A DNA stretch of 64,000 nt, from positions 124,001-188,000 of the forward strand of contig NZ_JACVBX010000004.1 of the NCBI RefSeq assembly GCF_014852585.1, given 5' to 3'. Source of the stretch: Pseudomonas sp. PDM18. GTDB lineage: Bacteria; Pseudomonadota; Gammaproteobacteria; Pseudomonadales; Pseudomonadaceae. The translations under genes and the position numbers were made by a program. A model generated the notes under the pieces. The model was not told the DNA's origin, did no database searches, and was given only the letters and a program-made list of their open reading frames with translations. Below are positions 53,948 to 61,121 of this stretch, piece by piece; the stretch's first letter is position 1, and each line of letters opens with the position of its first letter.

Positions 53948-55543
53948 ATGGTTGTGCGAATTTCCACCCCGCAGATCTTCAACTCGAACATCGACAACTA
54001 CAACCGCGGCTACGCCAGTCTCTCCAAGCTGCAGGAGCAGATATCCAGCGGCACGCGAATCCAGACCCCGGCCGACGACCCTGTCGGAGCCGCGCGCCTG
54101 CTGCAACTGGAACAGCAGCAGGCGCTGCTGACCCAGTACAGCGGCAACATGACGTCCGCGACCAACAGCCTGAACCAGGAGCAGAGCGTCCTCGACTCCA
54201 TCACCACCGCCCTGCAGCGTGCGCGCGAACTGACGCTGCGCGCTGGCGACGGTTCGATGACTGACGAGGACCGCGGCGCCATCAGCGATGAACTGGGCGA
54301 GATCCAGAATCAACTGCTGACCCTGATGAACAGCAAGGACGCCAGCGGCAACTACCTGTTCTCCGGCAGCAAAAGCACCGTGCAGCCCTTCGTGCAGAAC
54401 GCCGACGGCAGCTTCAGCTACCAGGGCGACCAGAGTTCCCTCAAGCTGCAGATATCCGACAACCTGACGATGTCGACCAACGACAACGGCTGGAGCATCT
54501 TCGAGATGGCGGCCAACGCCAGCCGGACCGCCAGCTCGCTGGCGAGCAATCCGAACGCTGACGGCATCCAGCGCGCCTTCCTGTCCCAGGGCAACGTCAC
54601 CAACGACAGCAACTACAACGCCAGCTTCCGCAATGGTGCGCCGTACACGCTGAACGTACTCAATGGGACGCAGTACCAGATCCTCGACAAGAACGGCAAC
54701 GACGTTACCAGTGAAGCCACCACCAACGGCGTGTACGACGCCACGTCCACCGACAGCAACGCCATCAACTTCCGTGGCGCGCAGTTCCAGCTGGATGTCT
54801 CGCTGCAGAAGACCGATGACGCCAGCACCATGGACACCCTGGTAGGCGGCTACAGCTTCAGCTTCGGCGCGGCGGCGGAAAGCATGTCGGTCAAGCGCAG
54901 CGCCACCAACACCTCGACGGCGCAGATCACCTCGGCCTCGGTGAGCAACAGCACGGCCTATACCACGCAGTTCCCCAGCAGTGGCGTGCAGCTCAAGTTC
55001 ACCAGTGCCACCGCCTACGAAGTTTATGCGCTACCCACCAGCCAAGGCGCTTCGCCGCTGTCCACCGGCACCCTCGGCGCGACCTTCCCGCAAACCGTGA
55101 CCGTGGCCGGCGTCGACATGAGTATCAGCGCGGCACCGGCTGCCGGCGACCAGTTCAGCGTCACCGCCAGCTCGCCGGAGCGGCAGAACATCCTCAACAC
55201 CATCGGCGACCTGCGCAACGCACTGAATACCTCCACCGCAGGCAACCCGCAGGCGCAGCTGAACATCCGCAACATGGTGGCCACCGCACTCACCAACCTG
55301 GACAAGGCAAGCGACCAAGTGCTTGCGACCCAGTCGTCGATTGGCGCGCGACTCAACACCATCGATGTGCTCACCCAGGAAAACCAGAGCCTGGCGCTGA
55401 CCAATACCACCACGCAGTCGTCGATCCGTGACACCGACATGGCCGCCGCGACTTCTCAGCTGGTCCTGCAGCAGACCATGCTCGAAGCGGCTCAGGCCGC
55501 GTTCGCGCGGATCAGCCAGCTCAGCCTGTTCAACAAACTCTGA
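53948..55543 (+). CDS. flgL: Flagellar hook-associated protein 3 FlgL
   Basis: A 531-residue junction protein. The flagellin-like N-terminus (RISTPQIFNSNIDNYNRGYA, SSGTRIQTPADDPVGAARLL) and C-terminus (LQQTMLEAAQAAFARISQLS-LFNKL) are clear. It is much longer than enteric FlgL (~317) because of a large central Ser/Thr-rich domain (~200-430). That domain would be surface-exposed at the junction and could be modified by the glycosylation genes just downstream. It is the last gene of flgF-L, followed by a strong hairpin. Confidence 0.95.
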   Translation: MVVRISTPQIFNSNIDNYNRGYASLSKLQEQISSGTRIQTPADDPVGAARLLQLEQQQALLTQYSGNMTSATNSLNQEQSVLDSITTALQRARELTLRAGDGSMTDEDRGAISDELGEIQNQLLTLMNSKDASGNYLFSGSKSTVQPFVQNADGSFSYQGDQSSLKLQISDNLTMSTNDNGWSIFEMAANASRTASSLASNPNADGIQRAFLSQGNVTNDSNYNASFRNGAPYTLNVLNGTQYQILDKNGNDVTSEATTNGVYDATSTDSNAINFRGAQFQLDVSLQKTDDASTMDTLVGGYSFSFGAAAESMSVKRSATNTSTAQITSASVSNSTAYTTQFPSSGVQLKFTSATAYEVYALPTSQGASPLSTGTLGATFPQTVTVAGVDMSISAAPAAGDQFSVTASSPERQNILNTIGDLRNALNTSTAGNPQAQLNIRNMVATALTNLDKASDQVLATQSSIGARLNTIDVLTQENQSLALTNTTTQSSIRDTDMAAATSQLVLQQTMLEAAQAAFARISQLSLFNKL

Positions 55544-55593: not shown

Positions 55594-56244
55594 ATGGGCG
55601 ATATCGACTTCAGTTCCAAAGGCCGCCAGTTGATCGAGATGTACGGGCAGATGGCCCGCGAAGGCTACGACCGCAGCGATGAGCAGCACGTCGAGGTGGC
55701 TTTCAGCGACTTCGAGTTGCGCCCATTCCGCCCGCAGATCCGCGAGATCCTGCAGAACCATGCCATTCGCAACGTGCTGGACTACGGCTGCGGCGGTTCG
55801 GACTGGAACATGCCCGGCTTTGACGACAACGGCCAGTCGGCGGTGCAGTACTTCAATCTCGAATCGGCCTACCGCTACGAGCCGGCGCGCGGTATCGATG
55901 AGCGTCGGAAAGTCGACTGCGTGGTGTCCTTCGACGTGCTCGAACACATCTTCGTCGCCGACGTGCCCAAGGTTCTGCGTGACATCTATTCGTGTGCAGA
56001 CCGGCTGGTAATCCTCAACGTCGCCTGCTATCCGGCGCAGGCGCTGCTGCCCAACGGCGAGAATGCCCACATCACGGTGCGCCAGCCGCTGTGGTGGAAG
56101 GGCATGGTCGATTGCATCACGCCTGAATTCCCCAACGTGACCACTTGCCTGATCTGCTCCACTGCATGGCGCCAGGCCACCGGCTTCCCGCAATGGAGCG
56201 GCAACGGCTGGCAGGCCAGCGAGACGTTCGTCATCGCCAACTGA
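55594..56244 (+). CDS. SAM-dependent methyltransferase of the flagellin-modification island
   Basis: A 216-residue class I methyltransferase: SAM motif NVLDYGCGGSDWN (~63-75), VSFDVLEHIFVAD as motif II/post I (~110-122). No membrane segment. Position between flgL and fliC is where pseudomonads keep flagellin-glycan genes, so it may methylate a flagellin sugar; this is inference. It follows flgL with only 50 bp and may be read from the flgF promoter. A terminator follows. A related small methyltransferase occupies a similar place in P. aeruginosa, as I recall. Confidence 0.8.
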   Translation: MGDIDFSSKGRQLIEMYGQMAREGYDRSDEQHVEVAFSDFELRPFRPQIREILQNHAIRNVLDYGCGGSDWNMPGFDDNGQSAVQYFNLESAYRYEPARGIDERRKVDCVVSFDVLEHIFVADVPKVLRDIYSCADRLVILNVACYPAQALLPNGENAHITVRQPLWWKGMVDCITPEFPNVTTCLICSTAWRQATGFPQWSGNGWQASETFVIAN

Positions 56245-56265
56245 TGGGTTTCTGATCGACAAGAG

Positions 56266-56292
56266 AAAGCCTCCCTTGCGGAGGCTTTTTCT
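56266..56292 (+). terminator. Rho-independent terminator after the methyltransferase gene
   Basis: The stem AAAGCCTC/GAGGCTTT with a 7-nt loop runs into a T-rich tail (TTTTTCTT). Confidence 0.9.
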
Positions 56293-56327
56293 TCCCGGCG
56301 GGGAACAGTTTGCGGGGGGGCAATCCT

Positions 56328-56395
56328 GTAGGAGCGAGCTTGCTCGCGAACCCGGATTTGCAGTGAAACTTGTTCGCGAGCAAGCTCGCTCCTAC
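56328..56395. repeat. Pair of inverted REP elements (BIME)
   Basis: GTAGGAGCGAGCTTGCTCGC plus GAA (56328-56350) and its exact reverse complement (56373-56395) are 23-bp perfect arms separated by 22 bases. Each arm itself contains GAGC...GCTC palindromes. This is the common Pseudomonas REP family. It lies between two convergent genes. A partial copy (GTAGGAGCGAG) is seen near 281. Confidence 0.92.
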
Positions 56396-56408
56396 GAAAA
56401 GCCAAAGA

Positions 56409-56433
56409 AAAAGCCCGGCATTGGCCGGGCTTT
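56409..56433 (-). terminator. Terminator for the minus-strand TPR-methyltransferase gene
   Basis: The stem AAAGCCCGGC/GCCGGGCTTT with a 4-5-nt loop is followed on the minus strand by a U-rich tail (TTTTTCTTTGG), 18 bases after the stop codon of the gene at 56451. Confidence 0.85.
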
Positions 56434-56450
56434 GTTGTTGCTGCGATCTG

Positions 56451-58037
56451 TCAGTCCAGTCGCTTGAACACGCAGAAGCCACGGTGGTGGACCTTGTCGT
56501 CCAGCAGTTGGCCCTGGTACAGCAGGAAGAAGCCCTGCTCGTAGAAGTGCCGCACGTTGGCGAAGAACTTGGTGTCGTTCATCTTCAGGTCGTTGCTCTC
56601 GATGACCACGATGCCGCCAGGCTTGAGCAGGTTTTTCAGGTCGGCAACATAGTCGGGCATCGGCTTGCCGATCCACACATGCACGGCGAAGGAGAAGATC
56701 ACGTCGAACAGATCCGGTTCGCTGGCGCGCAGGTCTTCGTAAGTGCAGGTGCGGAATTCGCAGTTCTTCACCCTATGGTATTGCGCCAGGCGCTCGGCAA
56801 TGCGGATCAGCGAGTCGTTGTTGTCGAAGCCGAGGTAGCTGCCGACTTTCTGTGCCACTTCGATACCGAAGCAGCCGATGTTGCAGCCGATGTCCAGCAC
56901 GCGGTCGGTGGGCGAGAGCCATTTTTCCAGCGCATAGCGCTCCATGCGGAACAGCGTCGGGCGCGCACCGGGCAGGTCCCAGCCTTCGTGACCCTGGTAC
57001 AGCTCCTTGTTGGCACCGAATACCTGGGACTGAGAGAAGAAGTTCTCATGCACATCCAGCTTGCAGTCGCGCCATTGGCTGTCTTCCGGCGCGGCTTCTG
57101 GGCTGCGCAGGTAGCAGAGCACATCGTTGCCATCCACCAGGTTCAGTTGTTCGCGCAGGTTGTGCTCGGCCCAGACTTCCAGCACATCCGGCGAGGACGG
57201 CACGGCAGCACGGCGGATCAGCACCGGCGCGTGGCGGCCTTCGAACTGCAGGAAGCCTTGGTAGTAGAAATAGCCCATGCGGATGTAGGGCACGTGCTCG
57301 TACGGCGCGGGGTAAACGATGCCATTGCCGGACTCGAAGAACAGCGGGGCGATCTTCTGCACCAGTTCCTTCGGATCGAACAGCGCCTGCAGGTTCAGGG
57401 TGCCGGACTCGATACGCTGCCAGCCGGTGACTGCCAGCAGGTCGTCACGCTGGCCAGGGTTCTGCTCCATGATTGCCTTGGCGCCGGGCGGGCCGCCGGC
57501 GGTGGCGGCGTTGCTCGAGCGAGCGAAGACACGGGCCTTGCCGAAGAAGCTGCTGGCCTCGGCCTGGCGCATGCCCTGGAGCATTTCCAGCTGAGCGAGC
57601 AGGTCGGCGGTGTCGGCGCGCTTCTCGTAAGTGGAGAGGCTGGCCAGCCAGTGGTAGGCCTCTTCCAGGTGGCCCTGGAACAGCGCCAGGGTCGCCAGAG
57701 TGTTGCGCGCTTCGAAGTCTTCCGCGTCCAACTGCACGGCCAGGTGCAGGTACGGGTGGGCTTCGTCGTAGCGATGCAGGCGAACCAGCAGGCGGCCGAG
57801 CAGGCTGTTCACCGCAGCGTTGTCCGGCACGCTGCGTTGGATGTGCAGCAGGTGTTCCAGGGCTTCGTCGTTGTGCTTGCCCAGCTCACCCAAGGCGATG
57901 GCCAGGCTCAGGCGCACCGGCAGGTCGTCGGGACGCTCGCCATGCAGCTCGCGCAAGGCGGTGACGGCGGCTTCGCGCTGGCCGCTCTGGAGCAGTTGCT
58001 GGGCCTGGGCAGTGCGGGCTTCAAAAGGTTGGGACAC
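56451..58037 (-). CDS. TPR - methyltransferase fusion of the flagellin-modification island
   Basis: A 528-residue protein. Residues ~1-160 are tetratricopeptide-like helices (LRELHGERPDDLPVRLSLAI, LLGRLLVRLHRYDEAHPYLH). The middle (~190-360) has no fold I recognise. Residues ~370-528 are a class I SAM methyltransferase (VLDIGCNIGCFGIEVAQK around 376-393, then FDVIFSFAVHVWIGKP). A TPR arm could present a protein or glycan substrate to the enzyme. A GTG start follows GGAGG. It lies downstream of the TPR-glycosyltransferase on the same strand (91 bp), and both face away from fliC. Probable role: methylation of a flagellin glycan or flagellin side chain; this is inference from position. Confidence 0.78.
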   Translation of the reverse strand: MSQPFEARTAQAQQLLQSGQREAAVTALRELHGERPDDLPVRLSLAIALGELGKHNDEALEHLLHIQRSVPDNAAVNSLLGRLLVRLHRYDEAHPYLHLAVQLDAEDFEARNTLATLALFQGHLEEAYHWLASLSTYEKRADTADLLAQLEMLQGMRQAEASSFFGKARVFARSSNAATAGGPPGAKAIMEQNPGQRDDLLAVTGWQRIESGTLNLQALFDPKELVQKIAPLFFESGNGIVYPAPYEHVPYIRMGYFYYQGFLQFEGRHAPVLIRRAAVPSSPDVLEVWAEHNLREQLNLVDGNDVLCYLRSPEAAPEDSQWRDCKLDVHENFFSQSQVFGANKELYQGHEGWDLPGARPTLFRMERYALEKWLSPTDRVLDIGCNIGCFGIEVAQKVGSYLGFDNNDSLIRIAERLAQYHRVKNCEFRTCTYEDLRASEPDLFDVIFSFAVHVWIGKPMPDYVADLKNLLKPGGIVVIESNDLKMNDTKFFANVRHFYEQGFFLLYQGQLLDDKVHHRGFCVFKRLD

Positions 58038-58128
58038 GGTGGTTCTCCTCCAGGCGGAGTCGCTGGCGATCAGGATTGACAGGCGCCGCGCGAGCGGGCC
58101 GGTTGATACGTCGTTGCGGCGATAGCGC

Positions 58129-59766
58129 TCATATCACGCCGCTGCCTTGCATGCGTTGCACCGCCTGGTCCAGGGCTTCACCCCAGCGGCCCAGCTCGCG
58201 GTTGCGGATCAGTTGTACGGACGGGTACCAGTAGCTGGTCGCGTCATCGACAGCCCAGCGCCAATTCGGGTTGAGCTGGAGCAGCACGAAGGTCGGCACG
58301 CCCAGCGCGCCGGCCAGGTGGACGGTGGTGTTGTCGATGCTCAGCACGGCGTCCAGCGCGCAGAGTTGCGCAGCCTGGGAGTCCATATCCTTGAGCGGAT
58401 CGACGTTCGCGTCGTGGTGAATGTGCAGGCCCAGGCTTTCGGCCTCGGCGCGCTCGGGCGCGGTATTGCCGTACTGCAGGTTGATGAGCTGCACGTTCTC
58501 CAGCTTCGCCAGTTGCGCCAGCTCCTGCATCTCGATGCGACGGCTCTGCATGTCGTTGGCGGTGTCGGTGCCGCCGCGCCAGGAAATGCCCACCAGGCGT
58601 TTGCCGGGGAACAGTTGCTGGTACTCGGCGCGCTTGGCCTGCACCTGCTGCGGGTCAGCCTGGAGGAAGGCGCGCGGACCAGCGAAGGAGGCCAGGGTAG
58701 GGCGCAGGAACTCGCCCAGGCTGCCCATGGGAATCTGATAATCGCTGCGCGGCCAGGTTTGGCGATGCATCATGCGCTGGCCGTTGTGAACCTGGCCGGT
58801 GCTTTCGCGCTGGATGATGGAAAGGCCTGGCAGGCTGCGGTGCAGCAGCGGGTAGAGGCGATCATAGGTCTCGACATGCACCTGGCCGCCCAGCTTGAGC
58901 AGGTCTGACAGCATGCTGGCGAACATCACATGATCGCCGATGCCCTGTTCGGCCCAGACCAGCAGCGTCTTGCCCTCCAGCGGCTCGCCACGCCAGCGCG
59001 GCGTGTTGAACTCCTGGTGGTGTTCCTTCAGCGAAGTCTTCCAGCGTGCTTCGTAGTTGACCCACGCCACGTCGAACTGCTTGAAGCGCAGTTGCAGCAG
59101 CGACAGGTTGTTGTGCGTGCCCGAATGCTCCGGCGCTTTCTGCAGCATCTGTTCATAGAGGCGATAGGCCTCCTGATACCGGCCAACCTGTTCCAGGGAC
59201 AGGGCGAGGTTGAACGGGCCGTAATAGTAGTTGGGGGTCAGTTCCACCGTCAGCTGGTGGCAGGCGACGCTGTCATGGTAGCGGCCGCACTCGAAGTACA
59301 GCGTGCCCAGCAGACCGAGGAGGCTGCTCTGTTGCCAGGGCTCCAGTGGTTTCTCCAGCGCTTTCGTATAAAGAGCCTCGGCTTCATCGAAGCGCTTGCG
59401 CAGGCTCAGTGCGGCGCCATACAGCGCCATGCGCGGCAGGCTCGGCGAGGCCTGGTACCAGCGCTCGGCGCGCTCAAGGTTCTTGATGAACAGCCGATGA
59501 GTTCGCATCGTGTCGAGCAGCTCTTCATCGACCTTGGGATCGGTGGTCATATCCAGCGCGCGCTCGGCCCAGGGCTCCGCCGATTGCGGGTCCTGCAGTT
59601 CGAGGTGCAGGCGGGCGATCTTGGCGTGAACCATCGGCGTGTTCGGCGCCAGCGTCGCTAGAGCTTCATATAAGCGGATCTGCTCGCCGCGATCTTCACG
59701 ATCTTCGGCAATCTGCAGTGCCTGGCTCAGGCGCTGAATCTCGGATTGAAGCTTGTGTTGGGACAT
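58129..59766 (-). CDS. TPR-containing glycosyltransferase, FlmG-like, probable flagellin glycosyltransferase
   Basis: A 545-residue protein. Residues ~1-230 are TPR repeats (for example GLLGTLYFECGRYHDSVACH and NLALSLEQVGRYQEAYRLYE). Residues ~255-545 are a GT-B type domain with the signature WAEQGIGDHVMFAS (~270-283), SWRGGTDT, and a C-terminal donor-site region DAVLSIDNTTVHLAGALGVP. TPR plus this domain is the build of FlmG-type flagellin O-glycosyltransferases (pseudaminic acid transfer in Caulobacter) and of related GT41/GT9-like enzymes. It starts 210 bp from the divergent fliC. Its donor sugar is unknown, and no nonulosonic acid or rhamnose synthesis genes are nearby. Confidence 0.78.
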   Translation of the reverse strand: MSQHKLQSEIQRLSQALQIAEDREDRGEQIRLYEALATLAPNTPMVHAKIARLHLELQDPQSAEPWAERALDMTTDPKVDEELLDTMRTHRLFIKNLERAERWYQASPSLPRMALYGAALSLRKRFDEAEALYTKALEKPLEPWQQSSLLGLLGTLYFECGRYHDSVACHQLTVELTPNYYYGPFNLALSLEQVGRYQEAYRLYEQMLQKAPEHSGTHNNLSLLQLRFKQFDVAWVNYEARWKTSLKEHHQEFNTPRWRGEPLEGKTLLVWAEQGIGDHVMFASMLSDLLKLGGQVHVETYDRLYPLLHRSLPGLSIIQRESTGQVHNGQRMMHRQTWPRSDYQIPMGSLGEFLRPTLASFAGPRAFLQADPQQVQAKRAEYQQLFPGKRLVGISWRGGTDTANDMQSRRIEMQELAQLAKLENVQLINLQYGNTAPERAEAESLGLHIHHDANVDPLKDMDSQAAQLCALDAVLSIDNTTVHLAGALGVPTFVLLQLNPNWRWAVDDATSYWYPSVQLIRNRELGRWGEALDQAVQRMQGSGVI

Positions 59767-59871: not shown

Positions 59872-59898
59872 TAAAGCCCATCCGACTTGGGACGATAA
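59872..59898 (+). promoter_or_regulatory. FliA (sigma28) promoter of fliC
   Basis: TAAA (59872-59875), exactly 15 bases, then GACGATAA (59891-59898); consensus is TAAA-N15-GCCGATAA, with one mismatch. It is 77 bp before the fliC ATG. It is the expected late-class promoter for flagellin. Confidence 0.88.
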
Positions 59899-59975: not shown

Positions 59976-61121
59976 ATGGCTCTTACCGTCAACACCAACA
60001 TCGCCTCGCTGTCGGTTCAAAAGAACCTGACCAAGGCCGCCAACAACCTGAACACTTCGATGACCCGTCTGTCCACCGGCCTGCGTATCAACAGCGCCAA
60101 GGACGACGCCGCCGGCTCGCAGATTTCCAACCGTCTGACCAGTCAGGTCAACGGCCTGAACGTAGCCGTGAAGAACGCCCAGGACGCCAACTCCATCGCC
60201 CAGGCTGCCGAAGGTGCTCTGCAAGAGTCCACCAACATCCTGCAGCGTATGCGTGAACTGTCCCTGCAGTCCGCCAACGGCTCCAACAGCAGCGAAGACC
60301 AGACCTCGCTGAACCAGGAGTTCAAGTCGCTGACCGCTGAACTGACCCGTATTTCCAAGACCACCACCTTCGGTGGCGGTACTTCCGGTATCAAGCTGCT
60401 CGACGGCACCGCCGGCACCAACGGCACCCTGACCTTCCAGGTCGGCGCCAACGCCAACGAAACCGTCAGCTTCACCCTGAGCGACATGAGTGCCACCGCG
60501 CTGAAAGGCTCCTCGCAACTGGCTTCCGCCAGCCTGGACCTGTCCACCGTGCTTTCCGGCACGGGTGGCGTTGCAGCTACCGCTGGCTCGATCACCGTCA
60601 ACGGTACCCAGGTCAGCTACGCCAAGGGCGCCAGCGCCAACGACATCGTCTCGGCGATCAACACCAACATCAGCGGCGTAGCGGCAGTAGCTGGCGCGGC
60701 TGGCAGCGGCGGCACCACCACTTCCATCTCGCTGACTTCCGGCAAGGACTTCACCGCAGGTGTGGGCACCGGCGCCGGCAGTGCGCACGCTGTGGTCACC
60801 TCCAACTCCACCATCCAGGCGCTGGACATCGCGACCGCCAAAGGCGCCCAATCGGCTACCCAGGTGATCGACGCCGCCCTGAAGCAGATCGACAGCCAGC
60901 GTTCCTCGCTGGGTGCCATCCAGAACCGTCTGGACAGCACCATCTCGAACCTGCAGAACGTGTCCGAGAACGCCACCGCTGCACGCAGCACCATCCAGGA
61001 CGTGGACTTCGCCGCAGAAACCGCGGAGATGACCAAGCAGCAGACCCTGCAACAGGCCGCCACCGCGGTACTGGCCCAGGCCAACCAGCTGCCTTCCGCT
61101 GTCCTGAAGCTGCTCCAGTAA
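59976..61121 (+). CDS. fliC: Flagellin FliC
   Basis: A 381-residue filament protein. The N-terminal D0/D1 region ([20 protein letters not shown] ... [20 protein letters not shown]) and the C-terminal D1/D0 region ([20 protein letters not shown] ... [14 protein letters not shown]) are fully conserved. The central part (~165-290) is short and rich in Ser, Thr, Ala and Gly, a likely surface for O-glycosylation. Size is like P. aeruginosa a-type flagellin (~390) rather than b-type (~490). The conserved [15 protein letters not shown] region is the TLR5-type site. It is flanked by the glycosylation genes and flaG. Confidence 0.97.

Follow-up and report, generated by a model that had tools for sequence, protein, structure and literature searches.

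What kind of locus lies between flgL and fliC in Pseudomonas sp. PDM18, and what might the unusual methyltransferase encoded there contribute to it? We examined this question in a window of 64,000 nucleotides, the whole stretch of DNA that was analysed, which is part of contig C44 of a 6.43-Mb genome. A preliminary description had seen here a compact flagellin-modification island made up of a TPR glycosyltransferase (TPR-GT), a TPR methyltransferase (TPR-MT) and a second, small methyltransferase (MT1), and the coordinates confirm that three genes lie between flgL and fliC (Table 1). We consider the locus probably a flagellin-modification cassette, in which TPR-guided glycosylation would be followed by TPR-guided methylation, possibly after phosphorylation; the flgL-fliC position of the slot, the domains predicted in it and a census of the genus all agree with the flagellin-modification reading given earlier. 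The kind of locus is ordinary, the enzyme is unusual, and the natural experiment that related species offer is unusually clean.

The three genes do not form one transcription unit. MT1 is convergent to TPR-MT and TPR-GT, with a REP-like inverted repeat and what look by eye like terminator hairpins in between, and this opposite orientation means that the set is not one operon. TPR-GT and fliC are divergent and separated by a gap of 209 bases, in which a sigma-28-like site precedes fliC; a scan with what we take to be the sigma-28 consensus, allowing at most three mismatches, gave 9 matches where 4.9 are expected by chance, so that the promoter call rests on position. All three proteins have low dN/dS (0.066-0.10) among the four genomes that carry the set, and so behave as products of real genes under purifying selection. 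For MT1 the value in these four carriers is 0.066; its orthologues occupy the equivalent position in 3/3 of the other TPR-MT carriers, and it matches a Pfam methyltransferase family at 26.2 bits, slightly below the cut-off of 27, and a PHROG methyltransferase (3.4e-14). The genome holds a second flagellar gene set as well (G000:C55, loci L055 and L056), with flgL, flgK, a fliC-like gene, fliD and, by eye, motor genes; its flagellin is 293 aa long as called. When the genome was searched with TPR-GT at E 1e-15, the sole match was the window copy.

Table 1. Features of the flgL-fliC slot and its borders, in window positions
Feature	Position	Strand	Remarks
flgL	53948-55543	+	Left border of the three-gene slot
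MT1, small class I SAM-dependent methyltransferase (predicted)	55594-56244	+	216 aa; Pfam and PHROG matches, orthologues in the same place
REP-like element	56328-56395	.	Two perfectly complementary 24-nt arms, 20 nt apart; between convergent MT1 and TPR-MT
TPR-MT, predicted TPR / RFK-like / methyltransferase fusion	56451-58037	-	528 aa; GTG start
TPR arm of TPR-MT, aa 1-165	57543-58037	-	Pfam TPR_19
Middle domain of TPR-MT, aa 166-312	57102-57542	-	Sub-threshold RFK-type matches; GTLNL at aa 212-216; putative boundaries
Linker and SAM methyltransferase domain of TPR-MT, aa 313-528	56454-57101	-	Pfam Methyltransf_31, PDB
TPR-GT: TPR arm aa 1-245, GT-B-like domain aa 246-545	58129-59766	-	545 aa; Pfam, NCBIfam
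Putative sigma-28-like promoter before fliC (TAAAG ... GACGATAA)	59872-59898	+	From consensus and position
fliC	59976-61121	+	Presumed acceptor; aa 171-310 hold 39 Ser/Thr

The TPR arms that had been described on both the transferase and the methyltransferase are well supported. Searched alone, the arm of TPR-GT matches TPR_12 (E 2.8e-14, Pfam) and that of TPR-MT (aa 1-166 searched) matches TPR_19 (E 1.1e-15, Pfam), and homology between the two arms is not detectable (E 0.1). The C-terminal domain of TPR-GT gives a weak GT9 match (E 0.029, below the Pfam cut-off) and a match to NCBIfam heptosyltransferase I (E 1.3e-5, below cut-off), and the motif quoted from it in the preliminary description is conserved in 10 aligned proteins of the genus except for V/I and A/V exchanges. 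The parallel with FlmG that was drawn at that stage survives in its layout, strongly for the N-terminal TPR half and by way of these weak, sub-threshold matches for a C-terminal GT-B domain; a nonulosonic donor of the FlmG kind is unlikely (see below). Relatives of TPR-GT are present in 46 of 369 genomes sampled across the class, the window's own included. Apparent fusions of such relatives to large partners, in frames of 1029-1179 aa, were set aside, the extra length being an open frame antisense to fliC. We note that a phage record (MW202512.1:23633-24610) encodes a TPR protein with 30% identity to TPR-GT over aa 195-521, and that the GT domain of TPR-GT matches phrog_36377 (E 6e-19).

TPR-MT had been recognized as an unusual fusion whose middle domain had no assignment, a judgement to which we add only a sub-threshold, RFK-like (riboflavin kinase-like) resemblance of that domain. 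Its methyltransferase is of class I (Methyltransf_31, E 8e-16, above the Pfam cut-off); among the 19 PDB sequences listed, the closest match is a phosphoethanolamine methyltransferase (E 1e-12), and WbdD is matched as well (E 6e-5 to 9e-5). Full-length TPR-MT is found in 4 of 25 genomes of the genus, in the identical four among 398 genomes of the family (at E 1e-40), and among 369 genomes of the class only in the window's own (at E 1e-15). The middle domain alone, searched at E 1e-3 in 398 genomes of the phylum, finds itself and one match outside the genus (in G944, E 5e-4), which is chance-like and lies in a frame with three stops. Full-length TPR-MT was thus confined to the genus among the genomes sampled, in samples that overlap in part and that distant relatives could escape. 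One carrier locus has a name, that of P. nitroreducens 381H (L035; 93% identity over TPR-MT), from a search limited to close relatives. The predicted combination of TPR, kinase-like and methyltransferase domains is a rare and unusual enzyme architecture. Among the matches listed from the open-licence literature, none relevantly reports an RFK-like domain with methyltransferases, which is no claim of absence from print, and for TPR, methyltransferase and flagellin together only CheR-TPR proteins and FlmG are relevant.

Other origins and roles for TPR-MT found little to sustain them. No relative was confirmed in viral contigs, which leaves a viral origin unsupported, and a plasmid origin is likewise unsupported, the three plasmid records that match doing so in the methyltransferase part only; the middle domain has no match in the plasmids or phages searched and belongs to no family in a PHROG search. 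A PADLOC match to mad2 (E 6e-19) covers only aa 369-508, and because it is confined to the methyltransferase domain we do not take the locus for phage defence.

The middle domain is probably a cradle-loop, RFK-related domain. With aa 206-368 as query, PF01982 (CTP-dependent riboflavin kinase, DUF120) is the top match (E 0.011, below cut-off), and with aa 165-375 the same family appears at E 0.019, again below cut-off; TPR-MT of the window scores 16.1 bits against a cut-off of 25, and its three orthologues score 15.9-16.0 bits (E 0.012-0.013). An NCBIfam riboflavin kinase model is matched at E 0.0039, far below cut-off, and the only match in PDB is MJ0056 (E 1.5 and 1.6). These RFK-type matches are not independent of one another, as a single C-terminal motif of about 26 residues underlies them all. 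TPR-MT carries a G-T-L-N motif and then the C-terminal E-x-x-x-x-x-L-R-E motif, in the order of RFK, in which the T and N of the GTLN motif have a role in metal binding. Since AbrB proteins also carry the C-terminal motif, the case for a cradle-loop barrel is firmer than that for a kinase, and kinase activity of the domain is doubtful.

We lean slightly towards an alternative that concerns this one part of the main reading rather than the whole, namely that the domain is a degenerate cradle-loop barrel without kinase activity, an AbrB-like barrel or some other, which would act only as a spacer or contact surface. That AbrB proteins share the motif fits this alternative, as does the restriction of the PF01982 alignment to 26 residues at that motif; a search of the window's genome with PF01982 gives no match at E 0.05, and the family is not among the best 25 of 28 Pfam families for the whole of TPR-MT. 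In hhalign comparisons of the domain with three RFK-type sequences the probabilities are 15 and 23% (P 4e-4 and 2e-4), and the second motif is aligned without the GTLN motifs; MAFFT aligns both. A degenerate barrel sits less well with the sequence GTLNL, which precedes the C-terminal motif, as it does in MJ0056, and is invariant across the aligned TPR-MT orthologues: G[ST]LN[LIV], a motif picked post hoc after being seen, has five occurrences in the ORFs of 14 sources (87,754 aa in all), and four of these are the TPR-MT orthologues. Nor would it lead one to expect a dN/dS for the middle domain (0.078) that is close to that of the methyltransferase domain (0.069). We note that a bacterial PF01982-like protein of 184 aa (L060:1465-2019, in G879), above cut-off with its neighbours, is encoded near what appears by eye to be an undecaprenyl-diphosphatase gene; bacterial RFK-like domains may have roles involving glycans.

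The occupants of the slot were compared across 25 genomes of the genus, of which 24 were resolved and one (G018) was left out where its contigs end. The set described here (type I: MT1, TPR-MT and TPR-GT) occurs in 4/25, the window's own genome, G006, G010 (read from L035) and G017. A second set (type II: TPR-GT, a GT2-FkbM fusion and a different small methyltransferase) is present in G007, G016, G009, G020 and G011, and, without the small methyltransferase, in G005, bringing type II to 6/25; TPR-GT is found in exactly these type I and type II genomes (10/25). Larger islands fill the slot in 8/25 (G001, G002, G003, G023, G012, G024, G013 and G008), with genes nearly all in one direction and in each a protein of at least 1171 aa, assigned from Pfam in G012 and G008 and from length and N-terminal sequence in the others. 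The slot is empty in the remaining 6/25 (G022, G021, G014, G015, G019 and G004), the gap measuring 0.27-0.57 kb and in G004 containing a putative 130-codon frame on the opposite strand. By gene content, then, the flgL-fliC slot is a cassette site, and 18 of the 24 resolved slots hold glycosyltransferase-containing gene sets, several of them judged by sequence alone.

Some observations on these neighbours may be recorded. The GT2-FkbM fusion (L051:6744-8057 in G011, with orthologues in 5 other genomes) occupies the position of TPR-MT; FkbM enzymes are mostly sugar O-methyltransferases. MT1 and the small methyltransferase of type II have no detectable homology (E 0.18). The slot of G008 encodes a 415-aa TPR-like and methyltransferase protein (L106:9433-10680; TPR match weak, E 2.9e-5, below cut-off) with no detectable relation to TPR-MT, and an 1824-aa methyltransferase/WbsX/GT2 fusion (L106:10742-16216). 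Flagellins as called are 480-649 aa long in the six empty-slot genomes (L103, L104, L108-L111) and 380-395 aa long with type I or II.

We propose that the TPR-GT arm would grasp cytoplasmic FliC, as FlmG does, and that the transferase would add a first sugar to Ser/Thr in the central region of FliC. TPR-MT might then grasp FliC or its glycoform, and its methyltransferase domain would methylate the sugar or a phosphate on the sugar; the RFK-like middle domain could phosphorylate the sugar beforehand, or merely help in substrate binding, and MT1 might add a further methyl group or act on a precursor. The idea of two arms delivering first sugar and then methyl is drawn from analogy with FlmG, whose TPR half is reported to be required and sufficient for interaction with flagellin (PMC7591256). 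The PAO1 flagellin island is reported to make a deoxyhexose-phospho-dimethylthreonine (PMC11833859), which gives the genus a precedent for flagellin glycans that bear phosphorus and methyl groups. In its fullest form, which we consider unlikely, the proposal would make TPR-MT a one-chain capping enzyme whose arm holds flagellin while the RFK-like domain phosphorylates the bound sugar by means of CTP and the methyltransferase methylates the phosphate or sugar. Were this so, the filament would bear a methyl-phosphate cap made with a riboflavin-kinase-derived domain, and a fold associated with riboflavin would be at work on a glycan.

The methyltransferases could instead act on flagellin side chains (lysine or glutamine) and not on sugar, which we regard as decidedly unlikely. 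TPR-MT has what by analogy is a protein-binding arm of its own, protein lysine methyltransferase 2 is among the matches of its methyltransferase domain (E 4.5e-8), and the flagellin of Aeromonas caviae is described as methylated beside its glycosylation (PMC9290775); yet the central region of FliC (aa 171-310) holds 5 Lys as against 39 Ser/Thr, and the type II cassette places an FkbM-type methyltransferase fused to GT2 at the equivalent position.

Does the cassette belong with the flagellin beside it? In trees of the 10 TPR-GT genomes, the four type I carriers form a clade in the best trees of TPR-GT and of fliC, and that clade is rejected for flgIJK (AU p 0.0007), flgL (0.0005) and fliD-fliS (6e-5). 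TPR-GT and fliC thus agree with each other against flanks on both sides, and the cassette goes together with the flagellin as a unit. Contrary to the history of the flanking genes tested, the TPR genes and fliC have either passed between species or been retained as a block, the comparison being with the flgIJK, flgL and fliD-fliS trees. Identity to the window's FliC is 98-99% in the other type I carriers and 80-88% in type II; within type I the variable central part of FliC changes little, and from one cassette type to the other it changes strongly. Identity of flgK runs otherwise (98% in G016, of type II, and 95% in G006, of type I). Adjacent genes may co-recombine from adjacency alone. Between types, the TPR arm of TPR-GT is 44% and the GT domain 61% identical, and within type II the values are 64% and 71%; greater divergence of the arm is expected if the arm reads FliC, and faster-evolving TPRs would produce part of this contrast too. 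At 0.34-0.48, the dS of the cassette is similar to the flgL value of 0.33, and the set is therefore not a very recent arrival.

That the TPR genes act elsewhere, on LPS or a secreted protein, and simply sit in a recombination-tolerant slot is highly improbable, for although TPR-GT relatives are widespread in the class and the slot accepts many gene sets, the clade pattern is common to cassette and fliC, unlike the other flanks tested, and most resolved slots hold glycosyltransferase-containing sets. Sister species that share a related TPR-transferase, and differ in the second step and in flagellin, offer a natural comparison that makes recognition of flagellin by O-glycosyltransferases and later enzymes directly testable.

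The slot has three genes only and, as stated previously, no sugar-nucleotide synthesis gene among them. NeuB and RmlC were the donor-pathway proteins searched for genome-wide. NeuB (PF03102) is absent from the window's genome (controls positive in 9/14), which makes a nonulosonic donor of the FlmG type unlikely. RmlC is present and adjoined by RmlB, RmlD and RmlA, so that dTDP-L-rhamnose should be made and is the leading candidate. The sequence of the predicted GT domain does not reveal the donor; a housekeeping sugar, dTDP-L-rhamnose, is most likely, and UDP-GlcNAc or other housekeeping donors are possible. Rhamnose is reported to be put on Ser by Fgt1 in P. syringae (PMC3927599), and the base of the PAO1 flagellin glycan is described as probably rhamnose (PMC11833859).

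How does the cassette compare with known systems? FlmG of Caulobacter crescentus, as described (PMC7591256), resembles TPR-GT in its N-terminal TPR and C-terminal GT-B-like halves, in size (596 vs 545 aa) and in having flagellin as presumed target, a likeness taken from its description; it works with a pseudaminic acid pathway that includes NeuB, whereas the window's genome lacks NeuB. In P. syringae, fgt1-fgt2 and a viosamine island with vioM are likewise associated with a methylated flagellin sugar and with rhamnose on Ser; in the portion of that report drawn on here the methyltransferase belongs to the separate viosamine island and TPR proteins are not described (PMC3927599). In Shewanella sfmABCDE, as described, the methyltransferase is a separate protein and a NeuB-like protein is present (PMC3765264). 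The fusion of TPR with a methyltransferase is shared by CheR-TPR proteins such as WspC, which, unlike TPR-MT, are accounted for as CheR-family proteins in chemosensory clusters (PMC3447774); no CheR model is among the best 25 of 28 Pfam or the best 25 of 40 NCBIfam families for TPR-MT. We take flgL to be the other border of the PAO1 island. That island (b-type, PA1088-PA1091) and CD0240-CD0244 of C. difficile are, as reported, each a small set beside a flagellin gene, like the locus described here, with a glycosyltransferase, a methyltransferase and a methylated end product (PMC11833859, PMC4441256). Both are described with phosphatase-like and cytidylyltransferase-like proteins, neither of which is encoded among the three genes of the window's slot; that slot has TPR proteins and an RFK-like/methyltransferase fusion instead. 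A kinase-like domain beside a methyltransferase invites comparison with WbdD of E. coli O9a, from which a phosphate-then-methyl step might by inference be carried over to TPR-MT. In the account given of it (PMC3482155), WbdD similarly joins kinase and methyltransferase in one chain, phosphorylating a sugar and methylating the phosphate, and it differs from TPR-MT in having a eukaryote-like kinase, a coiled coil in place of TPR, and lipid-linked O antigen as its substrate.
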